From the NCBI GenBank assembly GCA_023091665.1, contig JALJCQ010000025.1, positions 1-64,000 of the forward strand: a DNA stretch of 64,000 bases, read 5' to 3'. The translations under genes were made by a program, and so were the position numbers. The stretch is from Pythium myriotylum. Lineage: Eukaryota; Oomycota; Peronosporomycetes; Pythiales; Pythiaceae. The notes beneath the pieces were generated by a model that saw nothing but the letters and a program-made list of their open reading frames with translations, did no database searches and was not told where the DNA came from. Of the stretch, positions 33,934 to 41,888 are shown piece after piece; position 1 is the stretch's first letter; each line of letters begins with the position of its first letter.

Positions 33934-35406
33934 CTTTGTCTGTCATCCTTTTGTGTGTGCGTGAGTACATGGTCTCCGTGTGGTTGTACGGAACGGTTGC
34001 TGCTTGGTCCCCAAATGTAGCCATGATGAGTCAGACCGTGGAGATTGCATACCCTCTCGGACTCGTTACTTCATGATTGATTAACTCGTCCTTCGTGAGA
34101 TGGGCCACGCACCTCGGAAACCACATGGAGCCAAACGGGACAGCTCCGCCGTGGTCGTCTCGTTGTAACGACCCCCCCTCTCGGGGTCCATCGAGATTCA
34201 GCACAGCGGTCTCTTCATCCTGAAGGAGTCGGTTCGGTTCAGTTGACCCCGGGCGTCTAAACGGACACGGAAGGACAAAGAGAGAGGTCGGTTCAGTGGA
34301 TGTACTTGGTGCCCCTTGAGCAGCGCAGGCCCCGGTCGGGCCCATGCTGCCCCAATCCCACGTTTGCGTCTCTCGAGTGGGTCGAGTGGGAGCCACAATC
34401 AGCCCGCAGGCGGGTCCATGCGATATGTACCGTACTGAATGACCGCGACGAAAGGGTACATCGACATAAACTCAGACCAGCCACTTGACAGCTGCCGGGA
34501 TAAACCTCGATTACGCTGCATATCGGAAAAAAGCAATTTGAAATCCACCACCATTCGAGGGCTCCGACTAAGAATCGACCCGACCGGTCGACTTCAGCGT
34601 GTGTGGCTCGCCGAGCGCGCGTCGGTGTCTTCCAATGAAGCCCACGATCGACGCGGGTTCGGGGTCCTCCACACCGCGGGGCCCAATCTCTTTGGCGGGC
34701 TTTTCTGGCTTGGCCGACACAGAGCGCGCATTTGCTTGAGTTGGGGCCCCGCCTCTGTGCGGGGGTCCACCAGTGTACCGAACTAGGGCTCGGTGACCCG
34801 CCGCAAACTTGCCTGGCGTCTGCCGTGACTCACAGCGCCAGAAAACAGCCTCCCCCGTCGCCGGTGACTCCCAGCTGTCGTCCACCAGCCTCTCCCTCTC
34901 ATTGGACAGATCCCGCGCCCTCCCCCACCCCTCCTCCTCGCCTCCCTACCCCTTCTCCAGTCCATGGCAGCTTTTTTTTGTTGTTGTTCTTCTCTCTCTC
35001 TCTCTCTCTCTCTCTCGACTGGGTTCAGAAAGGGGAGCAGGCCATCCCCCGAATCGCCCCGCGAATCCCCCCGCGCCATTCCGCCATCCCACGACCCGCG
35101 ACGCCGATCGCCTCTTCCTTCCTCTCCATCTAGAGGCCTCTCTTCTCTCCATCTCTCTCCATCGAGAGAGCCCTCTCTCTCTCTCGCTCGCTCTCTCTCT
35201 CGCTCTCGTCTCCGCTCGCCGTCGTCGGCGCTCTCGGTCGGTCGGTCGCGCGGTCGCCAGTTGTGCTGACTGGCTTGCCGCGTCGTGTCGTCGCCTCGTC
35301 TCGCCATCTTCCAGCGCGCTCTTCTCTCTGCCGCCCCATTGGCGCATCGAGCCTCGAGCGCCTCGATCGCGCCATCGCCTCTGCGCGATACCCGATCCCC
35401 GTCGGC
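33934..35406. other. Intergenic, CT-rich toward the next gene
   Basis: No gene is seen. (TC)n runs occur at about 34988-35016 and 35155-35215, and the last 500 bp are strongly pyrimidine-rich on the plus strand. This probably forms the promoter and leader of the gene at 35407. A long minus-strand open frame (34783-37068) is low-complexity Arg/Leu shadow of that gene. Confidence 0.5.
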
Positions 35407-37341
35407 ATGGGCTTCTTCCGCTCGTCCGAGGCCAGACCCAAGTCCAAGTCGCGCTTCAGCTTCCGCCGCCACTCGGACGACCTCGTCGACGACAAGCCCG
35501 TGCCCGTGCCGCCCGTGTCGGCGCGCAAGCCCCTCGCCTCGTCCTCTTCCTCGTCGACTGCCAACCTGCGCGGCACCATCATCTCGTCGGCCTCGACCTC
35601 GACGTCGTCCTCGCTCACGTCGCCGTCGGCGCTGCAGCGCGCCGCGCACGAGAGCGACAAGCTCAAGCGCGCCAGCGACTCGCTCGTCTCCACCGACACG
35701 GACGACTCGGACGCCATGCGCGCGCCCAGCGAGTCCTCGGAGCTGCCCACGACGCCGCGCGAGTCGCTCGACGACGGCGCCTCGACGCGCAGCGGCCGCC
35801 ACAGCCTCGTCGGCTTCCGCCAGCTCCAATGCTCCATGAGCTACAAGAACCGCATGGCGCAGGGCGCGACCGGCGAAGAACTGCTGCTGCGCGCGAGCGC
35901 CTCCACGGGCGGCCGCCGCAGCGAGACCGGCAGTCTCCGCTCCTCGCGCGTCTCGCGCGGCAGCGGCACGTTCCTCCACTCGAGAGAAAGCACCGGGCTC
36001 GCGCACATTGACGAGCTCGCGATCGACGCGTCCTCGTCGTCTTCTTCCTCGTCGCCGGCCTCGGCGTCGTCGTCGGCGGCGTCCTCGCCCGAGAAATCGA
36101 CCGAGAAGTCGACGCCAACGCCGGCTCTTCCCGTTCCCGTTCCTGCGTCGACCGCGAGCGAGCGACGCCGGTCTTCCACGCACGAGCAGCACGAGCGGCC
36201 GTCGACGATGCTCGGCGGACGCCCCTCGGAGCTCCGCATGACCGAGGCCAACGTCGCGGCGCTGCAGACGCGGCGCGCGTTCCAGCAAATGGTGCTCGCC
36301 ATGGACGACGACGAGGACTCGGACGAGGACTCGGACTCGGAAGGCTACGGCTCGTACCCGCGCGCCAAGGCCTCGACGAGCTTCAGCGGCGCCGGCGTCG
36401 TGCAGCTCGGCGCCGACGAGTACCGCAAGTTCCAGTTCCGGCTTCGCCAGCTCGAGGACCTCTGCCAGGAGCAGGCTCGCAAGCAGGCCAACATGGAGGA
36501 GACCATCGAGACCGAGGTCACGCAGCGCACGAAAAAAGTGATCGAGGCCATGGAGAAGAAGATCGCCATGTACAAGCAGGCCAAGGACCTCGAGGTCGAG
36601 CGCGAGATCCAGCGGCGGTCCGAAGGCCGCTTCAGCACGGTCCGCGAGAGCAGTTTTCTGGGGTTGTCGAGCCAGCTCCCGCCGCAGTACCCGACGCTCG
36701 GCTCGTCGCCCGGCGCCGACCGCGCCAAGCCGCTCGACAAGATCCTGCACCCGCGCCGCACGCGCCGACGTATGGAGATGCTGCGCGAGCGAGAGGAGCA
36801 GCAGAAGCGCGAGATGGAGCAGTTCCGCGAGTTTATCCGCACGACCGAGATGTCGGTCAAGCACGCGACGGGCCGCGACGTTGTCAACAGCTTTTTGCAC
36901 GACACGCAGCGGGCAGTGTCCGAGGTGAACGGCTCGGACACGGCGCGCGAGTCGATCAAGGCGCTGCGCGACCCGCACATCACGGAGGACCTGCTGAGCG
37001 CGTCCCAGAACGAGCTCATCGAGATGATCTGCGTCCTGCGCAAGCACGTGAGCGTCCAGGAAGCCCACCTTGAAGAGGCCAAGCGACTCATCAGCGCGGC
37101 GATCGAAGCCCGTGAGGAGGCCGAAGAGACAGCTCGTGAAGCCGTCGAGCTCACGATGGAGCTGGACAACCGGTTAGAACGCGCGAGCCAGGAGATGATC
37201 GTAATGAAGGACGAGCTGCGACGGTCGAGCGACTTCTCGATGCGCTCGAGCTACCTCATGTCCTCCATGGGCGCCGACCGCAACAGCCAATTTTCGGCGT
37301 CACAGTCCAAGTTCTCAGGCACCGGGTCGTATCCAGGATGA
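35407..37341 (+). CDS. Ser-rich coiled-coil protein of unknown function
   Basis: A 644-residue intronless protein that I do not recognise. The first half is low-complexity Ser/Thr/Arg-rich and probably disordered, starting MGFFRSSEARPKSKSRF. An acidic patch (DDDEDSDEDSDSEG) lies near residue 300. The second half is helical and charged with heptad-like stretches (about 335-400, 450-490, 545-610), including REREEQQKREMEQFREF and EEAEETAREAVELTMELDN, and is likely a coiled coil. A Gly/Ser-rich tail ends it. A cytoskeletal or scaffold role is possible but unsupported. The ATG at 35407 is preferred because the upstream extension is encoded by CT-rich leader. Confidence 0.75.
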   Translation: MGFFRSSEARPKSKSRFSFRRHSDDLVDDKPVPVPPVSARKPLASSSSSSTANLRGTIISSASTSTSSSLTSPSALQRAAHESDKLKRASDSLVSTDTDDSDAMRAPSESSELPTTPRESLDDGASTRSGRHSLVGFRQLQCSMSYKNRMAQGATGEELLLRASASTGGRRSETGSLRSSRVSRGSGTFLHSRESTGLAHIDELAIDASSSSSSSSPASASSSAASSPEKSTEKSTPTPALPVPVPASTASERRRSSTHEQHERPSTMLGGRPSELRMTEANVAALQTRRAFQQMVLAMDDDEDSDEDSDSEGYGSYPRAKASTSFSGAGVVQLGADEYRKFQFRLRQLEDLCQEQARKQANMEETIETEVTQRTKKVIEAMEKKIAMYKQAKDLEVEREIQRRSEGRFSTVRESSFLGLSSQLPPQYPTLGSSPGADRAKPLDKILHPRRTRRRMEMLREREEQQKREMEQFREFIRTTEMSVKHATGRDVVNSFLHDTQRAVSEVNGSDTARESIKALRDPHITEDLLSASQNELIEMICVLRKHVSVQEAHLEEAKRLISAAIEAREEAEETAREAVELTMELDNRLERASQEMIVMKDELRRSSDFSMRSSYLMSSMGADRNSQFSASQSKFSGTGSYPG

Positions 37342-37761: not shown

Positions 37762-40700
37762 ATGGCCGTGGTGGTGGCGATTGTCAGGCTCGCGCTGGTG
37801 GCACGTGGGCTCTCGCTCGCGTGCGCCGAGCCGATCATCAACAATGAGAGCAATCTCCACGTGTTCGGCAAGGTGAGCTACGACCCACGCGAGTTGCTCG
37901 CGTTGTACCCGAGAGGCTCGGCGATGCGAACGCCGTGGTCGGGCGGCGACTGGGCGGCCGCGAGAGACAGCATCAACTTTCGCTGGGCCGGTGCGACGAC
38001 CCTGAGCCCCGTGGAGAAGTACGCGCTCGCGTTTGGCCAAAACGCCAAGAAGCTCGCGGACGCCGTCTCCCTCAAGACTGGCGCTAGCAAAAACACGAAC
38101 GCGCAGAGCTGTTCCCAGACCAAAGACTGCACTAGAAACAGTGAGGTTTGTGCCAAGCGCCGCGGTGAGGCGACCGGGTTTTGTCTTCCCGACTGGGATG
38201 GCATCTCGTTTGGCTGGTCGCAGGCGTCGATGCTTGAGCCCGAGCCGAGATGCGTGGCTATCAAGAACGGCGTGGTCTTTGAAGCCGACGACGTCAAAGC
38301 GCTCGCTGCGCAGTTCTACGAGCTCAATCCAATGGCAACGATCCAGATTGGCCGGCGCTACGACGGCCCAACGACTCAGAGCTACAAGGCTGGCGTGGAC
38401 CCGTACGGACGCTTCAACGACGACTCGCGGCGCGACGTCAACGCTGGAGCGTTCCACATCGCCGTTTCGAACCTGCTCGGGTATCACGGCGCAAAGATAT
38501 TTCTCGACGTCGACTCGGCCGAACCTCGCCGCCTTCGCCCATTGCTTTCGTTTGAAGTGCTTCAGATGAAAAAGGTCAACTACTGGATGTTCCCGAAGAC
38601 TGTCGACGGCGTCACGAGCGACGAGTATATGTCCCCGCCTCGCTCTTACTATTTCAACCCACGCGGCGTTATCGAGCTCATGCATGCGATCATAAACATC
38701 ACGTGGGTCGAGCCGACACTCGGCAACGCTCCTCGTACCACGCGGTCCAAGACGTACGAGTATTTTCTCGAGCTTGACTACGAAGGTAAAATTGTCGGAG
38801 GCGAATGGCTCGGTGACTCGAACCAAGACCACCCGGACTTCCTGGCATGGAGAACAACGAGTTTTCCGAATCCCAACCGTGTCTCCAGTGACGGTCTCAG
38901 CTATTCCAACATCAACGAACTCATCACTCTCTCCGCAGAGTGCGATACCGCATCTGAAACTGCTCCACCTCCAAAAACTTCATCACCACCGACGCCGACT
39001 ACGACGAAGCCACCTCCAATGACACCGGCACCGACACAAACGCTTTGCCCTGGGACGGGCCAGATGTCGCCACGCGTTGTCACGCTCATGGCGTCCACGA
39101 AGAGCCCCGAGACGGATTTGTGGATCGTCTCACCTGATTGTAGCGTCCGGACTGACACTCTTCGAGCCGTAACCGGTCTTGACACGACAGGGACGCCTCC
39201 TCCGTTCCGAACGACCAGGGAACCGATCCGGCAGCTCGCTCTGTTAACGCGTAAGCCAGTGATTGTGCCTCCTCGAACTTATCTCTACATCGCAGACGAC
39301 TCAATCGAGCGAGTCGACAGCCTGCCCGCTGCAACAGAGCATATGTAAGTGGATCACAGAGGTAGATAGCTGTGGTCGGTAGCTGCTGACGACATTTCCC
39401 CCGCAGGATGATCAAGAACCCATCAACGTTCTTGGAAGGAGCCAACTTCTCGAGCGCGAGGAAACTCGTAGATGTGTAGGAAGCTTGACAACTCTTCACA
39501 CGCGCAGGAAAATCCAACTAACGCGCCTGGAACTTCTAGAACATTCGAAGGCGGCAGCATCACGACGTTCTCCAACATCATTCTCCCAGATAGCGTGCTC
39601 AACTTGTGCGAAATGGTCTCTTTCTGCTCTGTTTGTCGTTGTGCTTAACCATGCGTTCCCACTTTGACAGGGACATTCTCGACACGAAAGTCACGACTCT
39701 CTCTGATATGGCTTGGCCAAGCAAACTCGAGTCATTGTGAGTCTGGCTGTCCCTAGAATACGGTTAACTCTCTGCTCAGCACCATCCTGTGGTACGGCAG
39801 CCAATTCAGCTCCGGCGTGATGTCAGTGTTGGAGAGAATAGTCTTGCCCGATTCGCTGCGTGCCGTGTACGTGTTCGAGATTCTAGATTGAAGGATCGTA
39901 TTGCCACTGATCTATTCACTGCGCTTGCAGTCAGCTGACGGGGATCTCATCAGTTCGTGGAGTGAAGTGGCCTCGGTCGCTGACCGAAATGTAAGTTTTT
40001 CTTGTGTGGAGAGTGTCGTATCTCCACCTCAGCTGACTTCAAACCCCTCCAGCGTCACGACCTTGGGGAAGTCGACGACCGAATTTGAGATCCGTGAATC
40101 GGACTTACCGATCTTTGCCAACCTGACGAAATTCTCACTCGTTATCGAACAGACGTCGTGCGCCGATCCATTAGCGCGACTGGTAGAGATTCTCAACCGC
40201 TCTGTGTGCGTTACTAGTGGTGAGTATTCTTCCTCATTCGCGCCGTCCGGAATACATTTCTCATGCTATGGTCGAAATTCCCAGACGCTCGTTTCGAAGC
40301 GCGATACTTTTCACCAACAGATCTTCCGCGGATAGAGCCAGGTGATTCGCTGGACTCGTCGTCGTCTTCCTCTGAAATTGGGGAGGATCTTGACCAAGAC
40401 AGAACAGACTCTTTGGTCGCCGAAGATGAGAATGTTGGGGATATTGCCGATCCCGAGCTGCTAGGACCGGTGACGAACAGACAACAACCACGCAGATCTG
40501 TTGCTCGCAATGTCACAGCTACTCGCAATGCCACCCCTGCAATGCAAGTCCCACGTAACTCAACGCACTCGAAGGCAAAGGCCAGCAAAGTCTCAACTAG
40601 TAAAGGAGTTGACTCAGCTGAAAAGAATCCAGACGCAAGTGGCGCGGGTGATCCGTCTGGCAGTGAAGTTTCTACTGGACGAAGTCGCTTGACCACAGTA

Positions 40701-41888
40701 GCTATCGCAAGTGTCGCGTGCTTCATCTTCGCTTTCGTGGTGATTGGTTTTGTCATTCCCTCTCGCACAAAGAACGAAACTGAAGGAAGCGAGTCTTCTG
40801 ACTTTGCCGAACTCACAGACTCGGCAATGATGGTCTCTTCACAGGCCGGCGGGGGAAGACCAACTGAAAGTGGGATCACGTCTGCACATGAGAATGCACC
40901 AGCCGTTGGATATTTGTCAAACGACGTCCGCAACGACCCAGCATTAGTAAAATGGATGATTCCAGCCCATGCCATCTGCATCGGCAATTCAATTGCAAGA
41001 GGAGGCTTTGGCGTGATTTTTCGAGGGGTCTTCAAGGGTCGAGACGTAGCTATCAAAAGAACGCTTCCATCCGCGTGGTGAGACCAAGCAGTGCTCGCTC
41101 GATTCATGGACGAGATCCGACTCGGCGCAGCGCTCAGCCACGACAAGATCGTACAGTTTATCGGCATCTCATGGACGAGTCTACGGGACCTCTCCGTCAT
41201 CATCGAGTTCATGCCAGGAGGAGACCTCCGCAACTGTCTCAGACAGCACGCACACCCGTCTGCTGCCGACTGGACGCAGCCGTGGGCAGCTTCAAAACTC
41301 AAGAGCAAATCATCAATAGCTCTTGACGTCATCGAGGCCGTCGCATACTTGCACTCAATGGACCCACCGATTCTCCACCGCGACCTGAAGGCGCGTAACG
41401 TCTTACTGGACAAGGCTGGCAGTGCGAAACTGAGCGACTTCGGCATCAGCCGGAAGCTGACGGTGGACGAGACGATGACGGGCGAGATCGGGACAGTGGC
41501 GTGGATCGCACCGGAGGTGCTTCGCGGTGAGCGGTACAGTGAGCGCGCAGATATGTACTCGTTCGGTGTGTTGTTGGTGGAGATGGATCGTTGTAATCAT
41601 CCGTACGCTGGGTCTGCTGGGGTTGGCGTTAGCGTCGGTGAGAGTGAGAGCGAGGGTGATGGTGAGGTTGACCATGGAGAGGGCGCAGCGTCGATGGTGG
41701 TGTCGGCGAGCAACAATCCGTTTTTGAACGCGAATCTGATGTTGCTGGTGAGCTCTGGGCAAGTGCGTCCTTCGCCGAGTGCGCAGTGTCCTATCGAGAT
41801 CCGGACGCTGATCGACCAGTGTCTCCGCTTCGATCCAAAAGAGAGACCGAGTGCAAGAGAGCTTGCTGAGCAACTCGTTTGTCTGTAG
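37762..41888 (+). CDS. Receptor-like kinase with transglutaminase-elicitor ectodomain, LRR-like repeats, TM and TKL-type kinase; one in-frame TGA
   Basis: Eight exons join in frame: 37762-39344, 39407-39475, 39540-39605, 39671-39736, 39780-39866, 39931-39990, 40053-40219 and 40285-41888 (1233 codons). Exon 1 encodes a signal peptide (MAVVVAIVRLALVARGLSLA), then an oomycete transglutaminase-elicitor-like domain (about 30-400) with RRDVNAGAFHIAVSNLLG and FLDVDSAEP, then a Pro/Thr linker (PPPKTSSPPTPTTTKPPP). LRR-like units follow: LYIADDSIERVDSLP at the end of exon 1, then about one per small exon (IILPDSVLNL, DMAWPSKLESL, IVLPDSLRAV). A membrane helix (TVAIASVACFIFAFVVIGF, about 40693-40749) precedes an intracellular kinase: RGGFGVIFRG, Lys in VAIKR (41055), HRDLKARN (41376), DFGIS (41436), APE. 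TGA at 41079-41081 interrupts the frame between beta-3 and helix C. It is a nonsense mutation, an error or readthrough. The intron at 39737-39779 is short (43 bp). Confidence 0.8.

Follow-up and report, generated by a model that had tools for sequence, protein, structure and literature searches.

How does a transglutaminase (TGase) elicitor domain come to head a receptor kinase, and what might it do there? The question is raised by a gene at positions 37762–41888, on the forward strand, of a 64,000-nucleotide stretch of Pythium myriotylum DNA (contig JALJCQ010000025.1), referred to here as the window. An earlier sequence-only reading of this locus had proposed a fusion of a TGase-elicitor domain with a leucine-rich repeat (LRR) receptor kinase, and the same fusion is found in three genes of the genome. 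This is a real and unusual receptor architecture, present in three copies; the kinase is interrupted in the window copy.

The window gene comprises eight exons and seven GT–AG introns of 43–65 nt, with the reading frame kept across all joins (splice search and hand check), which confirms the seven further exons joined in frame to the first. Exon 1 (37762–39344) is a single open frame with a TGase-elicitor domain, also as first described, and is supported by Pfam, the splice model, and an equivalent exon in both paralogues. It begins with a hydrophobic leader, likely a signal peptide (residues 1–23, 37762–37830; hydropathy 2.12 over residues 3–21, cleavage point placed by eye), followed by the GP42-type TGase domain, a likely pseudoenzyme (37903–38943), a Pro/Thr-rich stalk (38947–39045; predicted local distance difference test score <50 at residues 396–426), and an LRR N-cap module that recurs in other LRR receptor kinases encoded by this genome (39046–39344). 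The domain matches PF16683 at 291.7 bits (E value 8.5e-87, residues 48–394; curated cut-off 25) and exon 1 matches the GP42 structure PDB 3tw5 (E value 8.8e-59), with the GP42 fold predicted to be intact in the window domain. Exons 2 to 6 are LRR-like in the splice model (39407–39475, 39540–39605, 39671–39736, 39780–39866, and 39931–39990), and exon 7 (40053–40219) holds the last LRR-like unit and a C-cap (TEFEIRESDLPIF...) that has matches at five places in the genome. The splice program had split this last LRR exon, as it had in the second paralogue (paralogue B), and both were corrected by hand. Exon 8 (40285–41888), drawn from the open frames and the splice model, encodes a juxtamembrane stalk, a membrane helix (residues 839–857, 40701–40757; hydropathy 2.87 over 19 residues), and the interrupted kinase. 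The helix, already noticed in the sequence-only reading, lies between LRR and kinase in all three fused gene models. An unspliced reading meets a TAA at 39346–39348, just past the exon 1 donor, so that intron retention would give a secreted form; this is what could be said for reading the locus as two adjacent genes, one for a secreted TGase-like protein and one for the kinase. Exon 1, however, ends in the N-cap carried by LRR receptor kinases of the genome, and two paralogues repeat the order of parts, which leaves two separate genes very improbable.

Genome searches covered the window's own assembly. The whole assembly contains 14 TGase-elicitor domains, three of them fused: that of the window and a divergent pair at C19 (490253–491290, minus strand; 492573–493667, plus strand). 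The parts follow one another in the C19 genes just as in the window gene, and the kinase frames there, of 531 and 522 amino acids, are stop-free within models of 1299 and 1262 amino acids. Since such a repeated order is not expected by chance, the fusion is taken to be real. In paralogue A, where one LRR exon is possibly too long at its start, the TGase (277.3 bits) and the kinase (178.4 bits) both lie above the Pfam cut-off, and a domain search of the window exon chain likewise matched both (PF16683 and PF07714). The 3′ kinase parts of the C19 pair (L047 and L048) share 98.4% identity over 1005 bp, compared with about 66% for their TGase parts, with a synonymous divergence (dS) of 0.00–0.03 against 1.50; this similarity is a sign of gene conversion. 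The window kinase has at least 195 matches within this genome, which points to a large kinase expansion; two listed C13 rows carry stops.

Unfused TGases were inspected for a fused kinase at C9:1604000–1613900 and C22:1137500–1146500, and the rest were covered through the kinase search among the matches listed. A further candidate, the TGase at C22:1140671 (L049), lies among kinase frames; it was rejected as a fusion on the grounds that its TGase frame has its own stop and the downstream kinase frame carries its own N-terminal part. This stand-alone TGase (C22:1140671–1141750), Cys-His intact and placed between membrane-kinase frames, shows a gene arrangement from which fusions could arise.

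The state of the enzyme in the fused genes is visible in its active site. In GP42, a His directly follows the catalytic Cys (the 'CH' motif), according to a review of papain-like proteinases (PMC10318531). At this position, alignments place Ser149–Phe150 in the window copy (38206–38211), with Ser149 starting the helix 149–158 in the predicted model, and the two paralogues carry S-Q and S-S. C-H is retained by each of the 11 unfused TGases in this genome and by 45 of 48 aligned unfused rows, the others being C-N (two) and S-H (one); these 48 rows combine the 11 with 37 of 41 database proteins, P0035–P0038 having been dropped for want of the anchor motif. The S-H row, P0031 from Phytophthora nicotianae, is an unfused TGase of 441 amino acids and possibly an independent pseudoenzyme.

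Most of the elicitor motif is lost as well. The segment aligned with Pep-13 (VWNQP...) is degenerate in the window (38527–38565), and the remark that no elicitor peptide is recognisable after FLDVDSAEP holds: the core reads RLRP in the window and KLRP and KFRP in the paralogues, so that the Pro of WNQP is kept and W, N, and Q are lost. Unfused TGases of the genome have WNQP (ten) or WNHP (one), and WNQP is found in 42 of the 48 unfused rows. A set of 100 columns reaches at least 90% conservation among 38 rows treated as oomycete (P0016, P0018, and P0030 lack an organism name). The same 58 of these columns survive in the whole fused trio; another 14, including Cys, His, Trp, Asn, and Gln, are lost throughout it. 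Because Cys-His and W-N-Q are lost in every fused copy, the fold is predicted to be intact, and all 11 unfused relatives keep Cys-His, the fused ectodomain is likely a pseudoenzyme; it is most likely used for binding and not as a cross-linker. The fused TGases are read as having kept the fold and lost the chemistry, with general relaxation as the alternative. The sequence-only reading had pictured a wall-crosslinking domain wired to a kinase, and an active cross-linker would be in keeping with the presence of the whole domain and its predicted fold. Both catalytic residues are, however, replaced in all three fused copies, and the solved chain of 3tw5 likewise has Ser at the catalytic Cys place, a chain that we take to be the inactive C290S mutant; an active cross-linker is thus scarcely credible.

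The site of insertion can be read from receptors that bear the N-cap (CPGTG...TLMAS...W.V.P.C) found after the stalk. This module occurs at 24 places in the genome, three of which are the fused genes. Among the 17 of 21 unfused loci that were inspected, 16 have an in-frame hydrophobic stretch (12-residue hydropathy 1.7–3.0) directly before the N-cap; L065 has none. One locus, L024 (C25:310809), displays a leader, the N-cap, LRR-like frames, a membrane stretch, and a kinase, with no TGase, and its kinase forms one clade with those of the three fused genes (support 99/97; 20 distinct rows). By this comparison, the TGase and its stalk are placed between the leader and the N-cap in a receptor of otherwise ordinary build. 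The fused trio forms a single clade (100/97) when 28 TGases are placed in a tree; C9:1610642 is its sister (100/100), followed by C9:1605463 (100/99). A single fusion or insertion followed by duplication would be the simplest account of these trees.

The sister TGase, C9:1610642 (L011/L076), belongs to a 1585-amino-acid open frame in which the TGase is followed by a long Pro-rich repeat and by three PAN repeats (PAN_4, E value 1.3e-29); a CBM1-like stretch falls below the cut-off. The surrounding region (C9:1604000–1613900, L076) contains two TGases side by side, each with long Pro-rich repeats; the second looks similar by eye to the one scanned for PAN.

The kinase of the window copy poses a separate problem. 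Its usual motifs were correctly recognised, and PF07714 matches at 149.7 bits over 41082–41885 (HRDLKARN, DFG, and APE); the domain is, however, not continuous, an in-frame TGA at 41079–41081 having been overlooked. The N-lobe start, with glycine loop and VAIK, lies before it (40974–41078), and the TGA, placed between VAIK and helix C, divides the domain into same-frame open pieces at 40224–41078 and 41082–41888. Both C19 paralogues have a sense codon here and unbroken kinases. As assembled, the window copy would yield a product cut short behind the first kinase strands, and because the TGA lies inside the kinase, signalling by this copy is doubtful. The remaining kinase part also carries an insert of 18 residues, rich in Gly, Ser, and Glu (41610–41663), that is missing from both paralogues.

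Two ways around the stop were considered and set aside. A possible 60-nt intron (GTGAGA...CTCAG, 41078–41137, forward strand) would keep the frame and skip the TGA. Its use is unlikely, with a GC content of 0.62 against 0.41–0.57 across the 23 listed introns of the three fused genes (the last paralogue B intron is one base off) and with the loss of helix C of the kinase. Selenocysteine or other recoding was rejected, the position being an ordinary sense codon in the paralogues and TGA terminating a neighbouring frame. That frame (35134–37341), 735 amino acids long, lies upstream of the gene and has no Pfam match; a frame of 796 amino acids occupies the other strand. Minus-strand frames downstream of the gene gave nothing above the Pfam cut-off.

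The code behind the stop is well preserved. Of the 88 columns of the whole kinase at which at least 90% of the other rows agree, none is changed in the window copy, and in the same alignment the other 16 rows are changed at 0–10 of 88–92 such columns (17 distinct rows; L028 and L029 have no row, and one duplicate was removed). Against the C19-minus paralogue, the part ahead of the stop has a nonsynonymous divergence (dN) of 0.333 and a dS of 1.64, and the part behind it a dN of 0.256 and a dS of 1.55; these values yield only a rough dN/dS, as dS is near saturation, and they also average over the time before the stop arose. Because conserved sites after the stop show no decay, it would be recent, false through assembly error, or bypassed; the preferred reading from sequence is a null allele of very recent origin or else an error of assembly. 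The first of these would make the window copy a dying gene, with the TGA as a genuine nonsense mutation of recent date and signalling left to the C19 pair; it is given just short of an even chance. The stop itself speaks for it, and, provided that the adjoining 735-amino-acid frame is a gene, TGA is probably read as a stop here; among the trio, the window TGase also has the longest branch (1.05 versus 0.58 and 0.59). It is opposed by the unchanged kinase columns and by the lack of a second internal stop in the eight-exon model. An intact gene with a sequencing or assembly error, or a stop confined to a single haplotype, would fit the undecayed sites and is possible, if fairly unlikely: 55 contigs for 58.7 Mb suggest long reads, the errors of which are mostly indels. 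No stop interrupts the ectodomain or the membrane helix ahead of the TGA, and a truncated product (leader, TGase, LRR, membrane helix, and part of the N-lobe) might serve the C19 receptors as a co-receptor or as a decoy that lacks a kinase. This is distinctly improbable, given that the code behind the stop shows no relaxation and that nonsense-mediated decay may remove a stop-bearing transcript.

Taken together, the three genes are best explained as oomycete LRR receptor kinases with a TGase ectodomain that serves as a binding module sensing the wall or a partner, the kinase of the window copy being interrupted; we hold this to be somewhat more probable than an even chance. The gene structure, the kinship, and the residue losses are shown, and from the sequence we infer the binding module; wall sensing and its output belong to a proposed mechanism. 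A single ancestral insertion would have placed the TGase domain on its Pro/Thr stalk between leader and LRR N-cap. In this mechanism the dead TGase most likely serves to hold TGase substrates or proteins of the wall on the cell surface, the LRR part may serve partners, and the LRR, membrane helix, and kinase together could report wall state or partner contact inward. A wall-sensing receptor is thus a possible outcome. A bolder version holds that the lineage converted a wall enzyme recognised by plants into a sensor that is a pseudoenzyme. The dead, elicitor-stripped TGase would then bind TGase substrates or wall proteins and report wall cross-linking, with the organism's own active TGases setting the signal; this version is tentative and rather unlikely as it stands.

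Several observations weigh against this explanation. The hydropathy scan flagged the leader in the window copy only, leaving the paralogue leaders unflagged, and it also picked out a stretch within the paralogue B TGase. The Pfam LRR scan covered paralogue A, where LRR_4 (15.1 bits) and LRR_8 (13.2 bits) lie below the cut-off of 27; in the window, the LRR assignment follows from the exon-by-exon pattern and from kinship of the N-cap and C-cap, and the region is poorly conserved (35%–36% amino acid identity to the paralogues). The fused copies are changed at 23, 29, and 29 of the 100 conserved TGase columns, with 14 for L011 and 9 for L010; change is not limited to the active site, and general relaxation is therefore possible. 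A serine nucleophile might possibly permit catalysis without Cys. The order inside the four-member kinase clade is open, and TGase loss in L024 is accordingly a possible history.

To our knowledge, the ligands of oomycete receptor kinases are largely unknown. A receptor with a recognisable former wall enzyme would offer a testable guess at its ligand, namely TGase substrates in the wall, and the fused genes would be an example of an enzyme turned sensor if this reading is true.

The fusion was not found elsewhere within the limits of protein and literature searches. The TGase part of paralogue A, compared with some 5.8 billion proteins with candidates limited to 0.55–1.75 times the receptor length, gave 28 matches from 3888 scored candidates, none listing a kinase domain; the best, P0001 from Pythium insidiosum, has two TGase regions, both C-H by eye. 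A profile of the three first exons returned 13 matches, the longest of 710 amino acids and none with a listed kinase domain, from the 8000 scored candidates with the most shared words; its length range of 0.55–1.75 times the query excludes a whole receptor, and at best this search reveals split gene models. The N-cap with LRR gave no matches at an E value of 0.1 among 3432 candidates, a result of little information as ordinary oomycete LRR receptor kinases were also missed. By title and abstract, the literature yielded no TGase-LRR-receptor-kinase protein. The suggestion that no protein with this combination had been described is consistent with the 28 matches and with the literature.

Compared with known systems, the fused genes share with the GP42/TGase elicitor family (PF16683, PDB 3tw5) the domain, the predicted fold, and six conserved cysteines; members of that family are, however, secreted wall proteins, whereas the fused copies are membrane receptors without the Cys-His and the W-N-Q of Pep-13. 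The secreted PAN-repeat TGase of the same genome (C9:1610642) has the sister TGase and a Pro/Thr-rich stalk in common with them, but it has both Cys-His and WNQP, and its frame closes with the PAN repeats and the CBM1-like stretch and includes no kinase. PsRLK6 of Phytophthora sojae is also an oomycete LRR receptor kinase, and the word 'transglutaminase' does not occur in the accessible text of its description (PMC10390575), nor in that of the P. infestans kinome paper (PMC3019232). Plant-type extra ectodomains were sought on oomycete receptor kinases by Dievart et al. (2011), who report that none were found (PMC3268121, section 5), a report on which the present fusion bears. The order of LRR, membrane helix, and kinase is that of oomycete LRR receptor kinases (TKL; PMC3268121, PMC3019232); the fused genes differ in their extra TGase domain, and they illustrate one route by which such kinases gain an ectodomain, through a domain placed between the leader and the LRR N-cap.
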